The notes beneath the pieces are model-generated. The model had not been told where the DNA came from. It saw only the letters and a program-made list of their open reading frames with translations, and did no database searches. Below are positions 5,299 through 9,513 of a stretch of 9,632 nt of DNA, one piece after another; position 1 is the stretch's first letter; each line of letters begins with the position of its first letter. This DNA is from Thermoplasmatota archaeon (GTDB lineage: Archaea > Thermoplasmatota > Thermoplasmata > RBG-16-68-12 > JAJISG01). Position numbers and translations under genes: made by a program. Location: contig JAJISG010000258.1 of NCBI GenBank assembly GCA_022848835.1, forward strand, positions 1-9,632. The letters run 5' to 3'.

Positions 5299-5360
5299 CT
5301 TAACTACCTTCCACTATTACAGGTCGTCAAGGCCAATGGAATCACCGGAGGTGATGGCCT
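5299..5360 (+). promoter_or_regulatory. Promoter and structured leader of the COG2403 gene
   Basis: Weak TATA-like candidates are CTTAACTAC (5299-5307) and CTATTAC (5314-5320). The leader carries a Shine-Dalgarno matching nine bases of the 16S tail, GGAGGTGAT (5347-5355), followed by five bases and then codon 5361, which is ATA. The Shine-Dalgarno is part of a perfect inverted repeat, ATCACC-GGA-GGTGAT (5341-5355), that could hide it. ATG codons at 5336 and 5354 lie in a different frame from the protein. Confidence 0.5.
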
Positions 5361-6756
5361 ATAGCCAAGAGAAAGGTTATCATAATGGGTGCCGCCGGAC
5401 GGGACAGCACCGAAGGGCGTCCTTCGGAGCCCCGTTTTCCACAACTTCAACACCTGCTACAGGGATAGGGAGGAGTTCGAGGTCGTGGCCTTTACGGCCA
5501 CCCAGATCCCGAACATCGAAGGAAGGCGGTATCCAGCGAGCCTTGCCGGAAGGCTGTATCCGGACGGTATCCCCATTCACCCGGAGGAGGAACTTCCAGA
5601 GCTGGTTCGGGAGTTCGAGGTGAATGAGGTGGTGTTCTCCTACAGCGATGTCTCCTACGACCACGTCGGTAGCCGCTCCGCCATCGTCAATACCTGTGGT
5701 GCGGATTTCGTCCTCTTGGGACCCAAGAGGACCATGCTCAAGGCGCAGGTTCCCGTGATTGCCGTCTGCGCAGTCAGGACGGGATCGGGGAAGAGCCAGA
5801 CAACCAGGAGAGTGGTCTCCCTCCTCCAGATCTGGGGGCGGAAAGCCGTCGTAGTCAGACATCCTATGCCCTACGGCAACCTGGAGGAGCAGGCGATCCA
5901 GAGGTTTGCTTCTTTCGAGGACCTGGATAGATACAGTTGCACCATGGAGGAACGGGAGGAGTATGAGCCCCATATAGAGCGGGGAATTGTAGTCTATGGA
6001 GGCGTCGATTATGGCGCCATCCTCAAGAAAGCGGAGAAAGAGGCGGAAATCATCGTCTGGGACGGCGGGAACAATGACCTGCCATTTCTGAGACCAGACC
6101 TCCACATCGTCCTCGTGGACCCTCACAGACCTGGAGATGAGCTCGCTTACTACCCCGGAGAGGCCAACCTGAGGATGGCCGACGCAGTCATAATCAACAA
6201 GGTGAACACCGCCAGGCCGGAGGACCTCGAGGTGGTTCGCAGAAACGTGAAGATGGCCAACCCCGACGCCCCCATGATCGAGGCTGCCTCGCCCATATCG
6301 GTTGCTGACCCGGAGCTTATTCGCGGCAGACGGGTCTTGGTAGTGGAGGATGGTCCCTCCGTCACCCATGGAGATATGGAGTATGGGGCTGCCTGGCTCG
6401 CCGCTAAGAAGTTTGGGGCCTCCAAGATTGTGGACCCACGTCCCTTCGCCGTGGGGGGCATGAAGCAGACCTTCAAGCGATACTCACACCTGAAAGAGGT
6501 TCTGCCCGCCATGGGATATAGTGGAGATCAGATCAAGGAGCTTGAGGATACGATCAACGCAGCGGACTGCGATCTGGTTTTGAGCGGAACCCCCATCAAT
6601 CTCGAACGCCTTCTGGACGTGGAGAAGACTATAGTTAGGGTTCGATATGAGCTCCAGGAGATCGGTCGACCGAATTTGGAGGAGGTCCTGGGGGATTTCT
6701 TGGAGAAGATGGAGATCTCATCCGTCTCGGGGAGGGTGAATCCGACCTCAGGATAG
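5361..6756 (+). CDS. COG2403-type P-loop protein (predicted cyclic 2,3-diphosphoglycerate synthetase / GTPase), interrupted by a 31-nt intron
   Basis: Best model is join(5361..5405, 5437..6756), 454 residues. Exon 1 reads AKRKVIIMGAAGRD after the first codon. Exon 2 continues FHNFNTCYRDREEFEVVAFTATQIPNIEGR, reproducing the contiguous GAAGRDFHNFN start known in this archaeal/bacterial family. Downstream: SYSDVSYDHVGSR, the Walker A-like RTGSGKSQT (129-137), the diagnostic RHPMPYGN (156-163), WDGGNND (223-229), VLVDPHRPG, and NKVN (269-272) at a GTPase-like specificity position, where NKxD is canonical. The family is often annotated as cyclic 2,3-diphosphoglycerate synthetase, but a direct biochemical basis for these members is uncertain. 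The remainder is intact to TAG 6756, arguing against decay. The first codon is ATA, not ATG; the next in-frame ATG (5385) would delete the first beta strand. Unspliced, the exon 1 frame stops at TAG 5466-5468. A caller ignoring splicing would choose GTG 5389 and give a false N-terminus. Confidence 0.85.
5406..5436 (+). other. Predicted archaeal pre-mRNA intron with bulge-helix-bulge motif
   Basis: Seen in the sequence. Outer helix: GGA (5397-5399) pairs with TCC (5438-5440). Bulge TTT (5435-5437). Central helix: CGGG (5400-5403) pairs with CCCG (5431-5434). Opposite bulge ACA (5404-5406). Inner helix: GC (5407-5408) with GC (5429-5430), one A-A mismatch (5409/5428), then CCGAAGG (5410-5416) with CCTTCGG (5421-5427), closed by the loop GCGT (5417-5420). 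Known: the archaeal tRNA splicing endonuclease cuts BHB substrates between the second and third base of each 3-nt bulge. That predicts cuts at 5405/5406 and 5436/5437, exactly the ends of the extra sequence relative to the family. Ligation gives GGA CGG GAC TTC CAC AAC, in frame. The length of 31 is not a multiple of three, so removal is required. Confidence 0.87.
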
Positions 6757-6801: not shown

Positions 6802-6886
6802 GCGAGGGTAGCCAAGCCAGGTCAAAGGCGGCAGATTCAAGATCTGTTCCCATAGGGGTTCCCAGGTTCGAATCCTGGCCCTCGCA
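6802..6886 (+). tRNA. tRNA-Leu (anticodon CAA)
   Basis: Class II tRNA. The acceptor stem GCGAGGG (6802-6808) pairs perfectly with CCCTCGC (6879-6885), and the discriminator is A6886. The D stem is GCC/GGC (6811-6813, 6827-6829). The anticodon stem is GCAGA (6831-6835) with TCTGT (6843-6847), and the loop TTCAAGA puts anticodon CAA at 6838-6840 (reads UUG). A long variable arm (CCCATAGGGG) follows. The T arm is CCAGG-TTCGAAT-CCTGG (6862-6878). The 3' CCA is not encoded (ATCCA follows), which is usual for many archaea. No intron is present in the anticodon loop. Confidence 0.97.
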
Positions 6887-7881: not shown

Positions 7882-9513
7882 CTACGGTATCAGCCCCGTC
7901 GCTATGGCAGTGAGTAGTGCGCCCACGGCTAGAACGAGGACGGACAGGGCGAACTTCAAGGGTGCCGTGTAGGTCTTTATCCTCTTGCCATCGTAACGCA
8001 TCCGATAGATCTCCATGTAAGGTATGACCCGCCTTCTGTACCAGCCCTCGACCTCCACCTCTTTGCCTATCCTCTCCCTGGTGGCGAAGATTCCTACCAG
8101 AAGATCAATGAAACGTGAAACCTGGTGATAATCCAACAGGAGGAGGCCCGTACCATCATCCAGCTTCAAGTCCTCAGAGAAGAAGAGGCCTGGTTGCCCC
8201 CTCCCGATAATCTTGCCCCGCAACTTCGCGCCTCGACCCTTGACAGGGCTCGCCTTTGGGTCCACCAGCAGGTTCTCCACTTTCTCCTCTCTGAACCTCT
8301 TGGGGTACCTGTAAAGGCGTAGGTAGAGGGCAAGAGTGAGACCCAGGGTTGAGAGGAAGAGGCCTGCTGCCAGAAAGATGTTGTTGAAGTAGTAGAAACC
8401 GAGAAGGCCGGAGGGGAAGGCCAGAAGCCAGGCGCTTCGGGCGGCAATATCCTTCAGGAAGTCGTCCCAGTAGCTTTCCGTCTTCTCGAGGTCAAAACTG
8501 ATGAAAGGAAACTGCCCTATCTCCTTCGCCTTTTCACCAAGGGCCACGACCCTCTTAGCTGTGAGGGGGTGGGTCATGCCAAGCTCCAGGAAGAAGGCCC
8601 AGGGGTTCCAGAGGTCCCAGGCCATCACCTTCTTGATCTTCTCCTTGTTTACCCGGCCCAACCTGTCCGCAGACATGGCCGCTAGAGCCCTGGCTGACTT
8701 GGAGTTGAATATCATGAGCGTGCTCTCATAGCGATAGTGCTTCTTCTCAGATTCCTCGCCCCTACCTTCCTTGGCCAACCCATAGGCTATCGTCAATAGG
8801 GCACTTGATAGGGCGTTAGGGTCCTTGCTGGCATCTGCGGAGAAGGCGTCTGCGTAGTACTCCCGATAGCGTCCCACCATCAGGGCGATTAGGTTGCTCA
8901 CTAGATATGCTACAAAGGAGACCGCCGCGACGGCAAGTATGGCCACGGCTGCGTTTCCCCTTCCCCTTCCACCCCTCGCAAACCGCAGGCTATAGAGGGA
9001 CCCTCTGAATATGACGAAGAGAAGGAGGGGGACGGCAGCGACGATAGTCATCACGACGAAATCGTTGTTGGAGATGTGGCCCAGCTCATGGGCCAGGACC
9101 GCGTCCCTTTCCGCGGGGCCACAGTACTTCATTATTCCTCGGGTGAGGACCACGTGAGCCCGTCGACGGGTCCAGCCGAAGGTGAAGGCGTTGGGGTTGT
9201 CGTCTTCAATAATGCCGAATTTCGGCACCGGGATGTTCCGCTCCTTGCATATCCTCTCCATGAACTCGGCCATGTCGGGGTCAACGTCTCTCGGATCGGT
9301 CCAGCGTATGTCGTAGATGAATCTTATGATGTAGGGGGCGATAGCCCACTGGAGGAGGACCACAAACAGGGCGATGGCCACCGGAATCAGGACGATTAGG
9401 ATGCCGCTGAGGTAGCCCTGGAGCATGAGCCAGTAGGCCAGCGCCATGAGAATGGCGAATAGGAGGGCGAAGAGGGAGAATATCGCCAGGGCCATGCGGG
9501 TCTTCAGCCCCAT
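7882..9513 (-). CDS. htpX: HtpX-like M48 membrane metalloprotease with C-terminal extension
   Basis: A 543-residue membrane protein. Two N-terminal hydrophobic segments (about 7-31 and 36-62) precede an M48 catalytic domain: NAFTFGW (108-114), zinc site HELGH (142-146) and a third ligand probably Glu218 in GRYREYYADAFSA. Further hydrophobic spans lie at about 151-170 and 187-212, and THPLTAKRV (314-322) closes the peptidase domain. HtpX-type enzymes degrade misfolded membrane proteins. Bacterial HtpX is near 290 residues; this one continues with two more membrane spans (about 360-400), a beta-rich domain (about 414-512; GAKLRGKIIGRG, GKEVEVEGWYRRR) resembling an OB or SH3-like fold, and a last C-terminal span (519-541). 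ATG 9513 follows a TATA-like element by about 28 bases, suggesting leaderless expression. Confidence 0.9.
   Translation of the reverse strand: MGLKTRMALAIFSLFALLFAILMALAYWLMLQGYLSGILIVLIPVAIALFVVLLQWAIAPYIIRFIYDIRWTDPRDVDPDMAEFMERICKERNIPVPKFGIIEDDNPNAFTFGWTRRRAHVVLTRGIMKYCGPAERDAVLAHELGHISNNDFVVMTIVAAVPLLLFVIFRGSLYSLRFARGGRGRGNAAVAILAVAAVSFVAYLVSNLIALMVGRYREYYADAFSADASKDPNALSSALLTIAYGLAKEGRGEESEKKHYRYESTLMIFNSKSARALAAMSADRLGRVNKEKIKKVMAWDLWNPWAFFLELGMTHPLTAKRVVALGEKAKEIGQFPFISFDLEKTESYWDDFLKDIAARSAWLLAFPSGLLGFYYFNNIFLAAGLFLSTLGLTLALYLRLYRYPKRFREEKVENLLVDPKASPVKGRGAKLRGKIIGRGQPGLFFSEDLKLDDGTGLLLLDYHQVSRFIDLLVGIFATRERIGKEVEVEGWYRRRVIPYMEIYRMRYDGKRIKTYTAPLKFALSVLVLAVGALLTAIATGLIP

Follow-up and report, generated by a model that had tools for sequence, protein, structure and literature searches.

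We report that the gene for a predicted GTPase in a Thermoplasmatota archaeon is, with high probability, interrupted near its start by a 31-nt bulge-helix-bulge (BHB) intron at positions 5406-5436, which appears to have been gained once and kept, and is predicted to be removed by the splicing endonuclease EndA and the ligase RtcB. The positions are those of the window, by which is meant the whole 9,632-nt stretch of DNA that was analysed (contig JAJISG010000258.1). A BHB intron cut by the archaeal splicing endonuclease had been put forward earlier from the letters of this DNA to account for a broken reading frame. An intron removed by the tRNA-splicing machinery remains the best explanation and is now supported by a second genus with the same intron, by 26 protein clusters of one clade that lack a contiguous start, by 112 other distinct loci without the insert, and by the presence of EndA and RtcB genes in both genomes. 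BHB introns have been reported inside very few archaeal protein genes. If the assignment is true, this would be the second such coding gene and would lie in Thermoplasmata, introns in coding sequence would not be tied to the broad-specificity endonucleases of Crenarchaeota, and archaeal gene calls would be overlooking introns of this kind.

Split reading frame and BHB geometry

Exon 1 (5361-5405, IAKRKVIIMGAAGRD) and exon 2, which opens with FHNFN at 5437, stand in different frames. The 31 bases between them (1 mod 3) separate GAAGRD from FHNFN and their removal gives a continuous GAAGRDFHNFN, so that the split proposed in the sequence-only reading was borne out to the base. The protein encoded in the window would by itself also permit a border at 5405-5435, since GAT TTC still reads D-F; this register was rejected, as it offers no BHB and would read E in L002, the corresponding locus of a second genome (G001). 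Exon 1 of the window has no ATG at the expected start and carries at 5361 an ATA, an uncommon start codon, which is either used as such or a local sequence variant. Five bases before this ATA stands a strong Shine-Dalgarno-like sequence, GGAGGTGAT, which we take to be complementary to the 3' end of archaeal 16S rRNA. The features are collected in Table 1.

Table 1. Features of the predicted intron and its surroundings in the window
Feature	Positions	Strand	Remarks
Shine-Dalgarno-like GGAGGTGAT	5347..5355	+	upstream of exon 1; read from sequence
Exon 1, I(ATA)AKRKVIIMGAAGRD	5361..5405	+	ATA where L002 has ATG
Read-through frame from GTG 5389 (MPPDGT...)	5389..5436	+	start type that gene callers pick over exon 1
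BHB outer helix, 5' strand GGA	5397..5399	+	pairs with 5438-5440; absent from window MFE
BHB central 4-bp helix, 5' strand CGGG	5400..5403	+	pairs with 5431-5434
5' bulge ACA	5404..5406	+	predicted cut 5405/5406
Intron (predicted), 31 nt, frame-breaking	5406..5436	+	
Intron hairpin	5407..5430	+	inner GC/GC pairs 5407-5408/5429-5430, then A-A mismatch 5409/5428
BHB central helix, 3' strand CCCG	5431..5434	+	identical in L002
3' bulge TTT (GGT in L002)	5435..5437	+	predicted cut 5436/5437
Exon 2, FHNFN... to stop of predicted GTPase	5437..6756	+	
BHB outer helix, 3' strand TCC	5438..5440	+	

A canonical BHB had been claimed to sit exactly on the borders of the insert, and it was recovered there base for base with Watson-Crick pairs only. 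Two 3-nt bulges and a 4-bp helix are found at both borders in the window as well as in L002, and the upper part of the intron hairpin in the window consists of a 7-bp stem (5410-5416/5421-5427) closed by the loop GCGT (5417-5420). The predicted cut sites follow from the established rule by which EndA cleaves within such bulges. When the exons were fixed and the 31 bases shuffled, 0.7% of the shuffles yielded the central and inner helices, and when a 61-nt stretch was shuffled all three helices arose in 0.02% (200,000 shuffles in each case, G-U allowed). A scan of the whole window for inserts of 18-60 nt, using Watson-Crick pairs only, returned three such BHBs on the + strand, including 5406-5436, and one on the - strand. 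With several BHBs in the window the geometry alone is not unique, and it is the coincidence with a border defined by homology that counts.

The minimum free energy (MFE) structure predicted for the window (-22.7) has the outer helix slid onto UUU and lacks the 3' bulge; the BHB fold (-22.1) lies 0.6 kcal/mol above it. In L002 the BHB is itself the MFE structure (-23.4). The segment 5361-5480 folded no better than its shuffled versions (z -0.79). No flanking direct repeats of at least 10 nt, a sign of a mobile insert, were reported within 5300-5560, at a setting that also missed the intron's own hairpin. Group I and group II introns were rejected as candidates because Rfam models recognised no ribozyme core, the tRNA at 6802-6886 being the only element in the window to reach the Rfam gathering score.

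Homologues, the second genus and the insert-bearing clade

The gene encodes a predicted GTPase that is a distant relative of cyclic 2,3-diphosphoglycerate synthetase. Its closest solved relatives by sequence are the cyclic 2,3-diphosphoglycerate synthetases 9sxb, 8oru and 8ork, matched over about 110 residues, and by fold 8oru (16% identity). The label COG2403 was that of the sequence-only reading; the database names carried by relatives are 'predicted GTPase' and 'cyclic 2,3-diphosphoglycerate synthase'. Matches to the protein were found in 93 of 150 relatives, in 33 of the 37 genomes searched within the order and in 185 of the 400 searched within the class, and 65 loci came from scanning named genomes. 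The start region was examined for 115 distinct loci, a subset of all matches. The junction GRD|F was unbroken in 112 of these (111 with GAAGRD, one with GAGGRD), one (L046) was too short, and the two with a broken start were the window and L002. The alignment with homologues that had been proposed as a check thus places GRD and F side by side elsewhere, in these 112 loci and in 175 of the 201 proteins considered below, and in the homologues examined the insert is not coding sequence. The insert is absent from these homologues and its removal restores the product, as expected of an intron.

In an alignment of 39 insert-free proteins the residues G10-A-A-G-R-D-F16 are invariant. The predicted structure of one of the insert-free proteins (mean pLDDT 92) has strand 1 at residues 4-10 and helix 1 at residues 14-23, which would place the insert at the start of helix 1, directly after the glycine-rich loop; exon 1 contributes strand 1 and this invariant loop. 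The codon pair GGA CGG, which the BHB of the window uses, occurs in three of the 112 insert-free loci.

L002 lies on a 105-kb contig of G001, which belongs to another genus of the window's family, and its product is 72% identical to that of the window. G001 was the only other genome of this family compared, and the DNA of the insert was read in these two genomes. The L002 insert is again 31 nt long and stands at the same base position, with 9 of its 31 bases different from those of the window. The outer, central and inner helices and both bulges are kept; the 3' bulge TTT has become GGT, the A-A mismatch a T-A pair, and in the stem one pair has become G-U and one is lost (G-G). Exon 1 of L002 opens with ATG (MSRKRVIIMGAAGRD). 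Among the 15 codons of exon 1, eight are identical in the two genomes, two differ synonymously and five nonsynonymously (window/L002: I/M at the start codon, A/S, and three K-R exchanges), so that the changes in exon 1 ahead of the GTG are synonymous or mostly conservative.

The read-through frame was searched against 5.8 billion proteins, and among the best 120 of 7999 scored matches the top 24 all lacked the normal start. A second protein search, again limited to the best 120, brought the number of proteins compared to 201. Among the matches listed, 175 have GRD|F and the other 26 all belong to one clade, whose members are 70-97% identical to the window's protein. None of the 26 clade clusters carries exon 1, which gene calls would thus be missing if the intron is real. 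In a quick tree (105 rows, SH-aLRT only, midpoint root) one branch with a support of 96 held 28 rows (P0001-P0024, P0026, P0027, L001 and L002), none with a contiguous start; within it are two subclades with support of 98 and 99. The distribution is most simply explained by one gain without loss, with the gain probably in the ancestor of the clade and the intron kept thereafter.

Beyond the window and L002, the properties of the insert were deduced from read-through proteins. Seven of the 26 clade proteins start downstream of the insert and are uninformative on it, and the other 19 extend at least to its 3' end. An MPPDGT-like frame allowed the insert to be measured in 14 of the 26, and its length was exactly 31 nt in every one of these (12 distinct strings). 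Since MPPDG is the other-frame reading of GAAGRD, these sequences should also have the exon codons GGA CGG if GAAGRD is kept. All 14 insert-spanning proteins have Ala (GCN) at codon 1 and Pro (CCN) at codon 9; at codon 8 they carry one of the four amino acids that an NGC codon can encode (Ser, Gly, Cys or Arg), at codon 10 Val, Gly, Ala or Asp (GNN), and the residues in the middle of the insert vary freely. Residues encoded by GCN, NGC, CCN and GNN imply that the inner GC/GC pair and the CCCG strand are kept. With all four NGC amino acids at codon 8 and GNN only at codon 10, the constraint read from these proteins is one on bases and not on residues.

It is on this evidence that the first alternative has to be weighed, namely that translation begins at the GTG at 5389 (MPPDGT plus 10 residues) and gives the protein a new N-terminus without splicing. 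The frame is open from the GTG in both genomes, and the 14 clade entries that run through the insert in this frame do so always with 10 residues. However, the codons before 5389 retain protein-level conservation in the other frame, codons 8 and 10 are constrained at the level of bases, seven of the 26 clusters begin downstream of the insert, and the product would have neither strand 1 nor the invariant GAAGRD loop. We therefore regard a new N-terminus as very improbable.

The pattern CCN GNN fits all 14 insert-spanning proteins and 15 of the 19 that reach the 3' end of the insert. Among the remaining four, P0017, P0018 and P0024 would fit only with a changed exon Arg codon, through which they could keep the central helix, and P0023 (SQ|FQNFN) does not fit. 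The inserts of P0018 and P0024 would also be 31 nt long if the start ATG spans the splice border. P0023, which belongs to the sister clade and has SQ in front of FQNFN, possibly has a changed intron or one in decay. For the DNA of the sister clade (P0017, P0018, P0023 and P0024), no close enough match was found in the order (37 genomes) or in the class (400 genomes drawn from a larger group). In seven proteins (P0006-P0010, P0026 and P0027) the annotated start is at (M)VAFTAT or similar, downstream of the insert; in that frame the inserts may have stops or offer no start codon, or the contigs may end there.

Seven lineages were selected among the 12 strings, and in each of them the most favourable synonymous version of the insert folds to a hairpin of 9-10 bp, values that are upper limits because the codons were inferred. 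In a half-swap control on these lineages, matched halves paired better than swapped ones, with rank 50 of 5040 when judged by energy and 120 of 5040 when judged by pair count (24 of 720 without P0005). The signal came mostly from P0003 and P0021, P0005 needed a shifted register, and many swapped pairs tied. An unconstrained back-translation test of the stem did not discriminate, permuted versions being as good in 3 to 55 of 60 cases, with P0005 and P0002 the worst. Three of the four sister-clade members showed a hairpin capacity only weakly better than that of permuted versions (as low in 4, 2 and 5 of 30).

Splicing machinery and alternatives to splicing

Both genomes (G000 and G001) encode a splicing endonuclease and a ligase, as a host of a BHB intron should, with one RtcB gene and one EndA gene in each. 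The EndA proteins are 351 and 354 aa long and have two PF01974 domains. In their C-terminal half, Tyr, His and Lys are aligned with the active site of the Archaeoglobus enzyme, where such residues have catalytic roles. EndA matches the solved homodimeric Archaeoglobus enzymes 1r0v and 2gjw; the top match among solved structures is Methanopyrus kandleri chain 5x89, an enzyme given as (alpha beta)2 in the review PMC6379350. That both PF01974 domains sit in a single gene speaks against two subunits. Judged by sequence, EndA is thus likely of the fused homodimeric (alpha'2) type, the M. kandleri match being a reason for caution. Endonucleases of the alpha'2 type are described as narrow in specificity (PMC6379350), and that of Archaeoglobus as needing a strict 3-nt bulge (PMC12397907). 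An alpha'2-type EndA is expected to accept the strict 3-4-3 BHB present in this intron. The homodimeric EndA of the euryarchaeon Ferroplasma is reported in PMC8707768 to cut BHB introns out of mRNA without a tRNA body, and to restore, in yeast, a lacZ frame broken by an engineered BHB intron.

According to the proposed mechanism, the transcript would fold into the BHB at 5397-5440, EndA would cut within both bulges (5405/5406 and 5436/5437), and RtcB would ligate 5405 to 5437. The joined message would read ...GAAGRDFHNFN..., and it is from this spliced message that the protein would be translated. Unspliced message could yield a GTG-started protein without strand 1, which would probably be inactive.

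A second alternative is that ribosomes undergo a programmed +1 frameshift at the conserved CCC CG before 5434-5437, leaving about ten extra residues in the protein. In its favour, CCCCG is common to both genomes, a hairpin lies upstream of it, and in both genomes the upstream frame stays open across the insert. It would nevertheless add residues between D15 and F16, where all 175 contiguous proteins have none, and would account neither for the unvarying length of 31 nt nor for the GC/GC pair, the 3-nt bulges and the outer helix, while CCCCG is already accounted for by its pairing to the CGGG of the exon. A frameshift is thus about as hard to credit as a new N-terminus. Known cases of ribosomal bypassing, such as phage T4 gene 60, require matching take-off and landing codons. 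Hopping of the ribosome over the hairpin on intact RNA, for which it can be said that the hairpin spans the gap, is barely credible since these codons mismatch here (GAC against GTT in the window and GGG in L002). An assembly error or a pseudogene, suggested by the many-contig genomes and by ATA in place of ATG at the start of exon 1, is no more believable, as the same insert stands on a 105-kb contig of another genus, a 31-nt insert is found in 14 database proteins (some from the same or nearly the same organisms as these two), and exon 2 forms a long open frame in either genome; the sequence-only reading had accepted absence of the 31 bases from the genome as grounds for giving it up, and they are present in two separate genomes.

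If the intron is removed by EndA and RtcB, it may further be asked whether splicing is a kept control point and not a tolerated relic, with coding introns in a strict BHB and a homodimeric EndA together forming an overlooked layer of expression in euryarchaea. This is suggested by the single gain, the constant 31 nt, the lack of any loss seen in the clade, and an unspliced product that would be N-truncated and without the glycine-rich loop: unspliced message would give a truncated enzyme, so that EndA activity would set the amount of working enzyme. We consider this extension doubtful. The clade supplies over a dozen natural variants with which the persistence of the intron and any role for it could be tested.

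Relation to known BHB introns and neighbouring genes

Introns in crenarchaeal cbf5 pre-mRNA are reportedly the subject of Watanabe 2002 and Yoshinari 2006, and the title of the latter is said to tie cbf5 splicing to a hetero-oligomeric endonuclease. The cbf5 introns cited in PMC2738675 (Yokobori 2009) are 33, 36 and 39 bp and archaeal tRNA introns 11-175 nt, against which a length of 31 nt is not exceptional, and the earlier description of the present intron as very short does not hold. The same source mentions putative introns in other protein-coding genes, predicted without confirmation, and cites Peng 2004 for putative 12-bp introns in a virus. As described there, the cbf5 introns of Crenarchaeota resemble the one in the window in being short, of the EndA type, placed in coding sequence and restricted to a lineage, in that their removal restores a conserved protein, and in having been missed by gene callers (PMC2738675). 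Unlike the cbf5 case, the present intron lies in another gene (the predicted GTPase) and another lineage, its BHB is strict, and the host has one EndA gene, of the fused type. It is the same kind of element as the cbf5 introns, and what is new is the gene, the lineage and the layout of the endonuclease. In both genomes cbf5 itself is one unbroken open frame.

The 5' UTR of Haloferax HVO_1309 contains a 46-nt BHB intron in mRNA that was cut by recombinant endonuclease (PMC7714728). The sequence-only reading had called protein-coding BHB introns rare, with cbf5 the classic case; as to coding sequence this stands, cbf5 being the known example, and HVO_1309 adds that a BHB in mRNA exists outside cbf5. 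According to that 2020 paper, no BHB intron had been reported in archaeal mRNA apart from that of cbf5 and the UTR intron it describes itself (PMC7714728). Both HVO_1309 and the window thus have a BHB intron in a euryarchaeal mRNA, but the former, as described, lies in a UTR with no reading frame dependent on it (PMC7714728). Archaeal tRNA introns with a canonical hBHBh' share the geometry and the enzyme with the present intron, whose host RNA is in contrast an mRNA without a tRNA body. The Ferroplasma EndA/lacZ system likewise combines a frame-breaking BHB intron in mRNA with a homodimeric EndA, but its substrate is an artificial one, placed in yeast, whose 5' bulge has 2 nt, whereas the intron of the window is natural and has 3-nt bulges (PMC8707768). 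Among the open-access titles and abstract openings listed, none names a BHB intron in this family of predicted GTPases.

A tRNA-Leu (CAA) gene lies directly downstream of the predicted-GTPase gene (window 6802-6886), and in G001 the gene is likewise followed at that place by a tRNA gene (C29:14738-14822). Eight tRNAs from the two genomes (L173, L175, L176, L178, L180, L181, L182 and L185) appear to be interrupted in the anticodon arm by introns of 20-31 nt that have BHB geometry, as seen in a lax scan of 15 tRNA loci that gives too many chance hits to be counted and is illustrative only. These intron-bearing tRNAs read as Glu, Gln and Met types, some of them being labelled otherwise by ARAGORN. 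On the - strand, the window also encodes an HtpX-like M48 protease of 543 aa (7882-9513), which has a long C-terminal part beyond the protease domain at residues 79-327.
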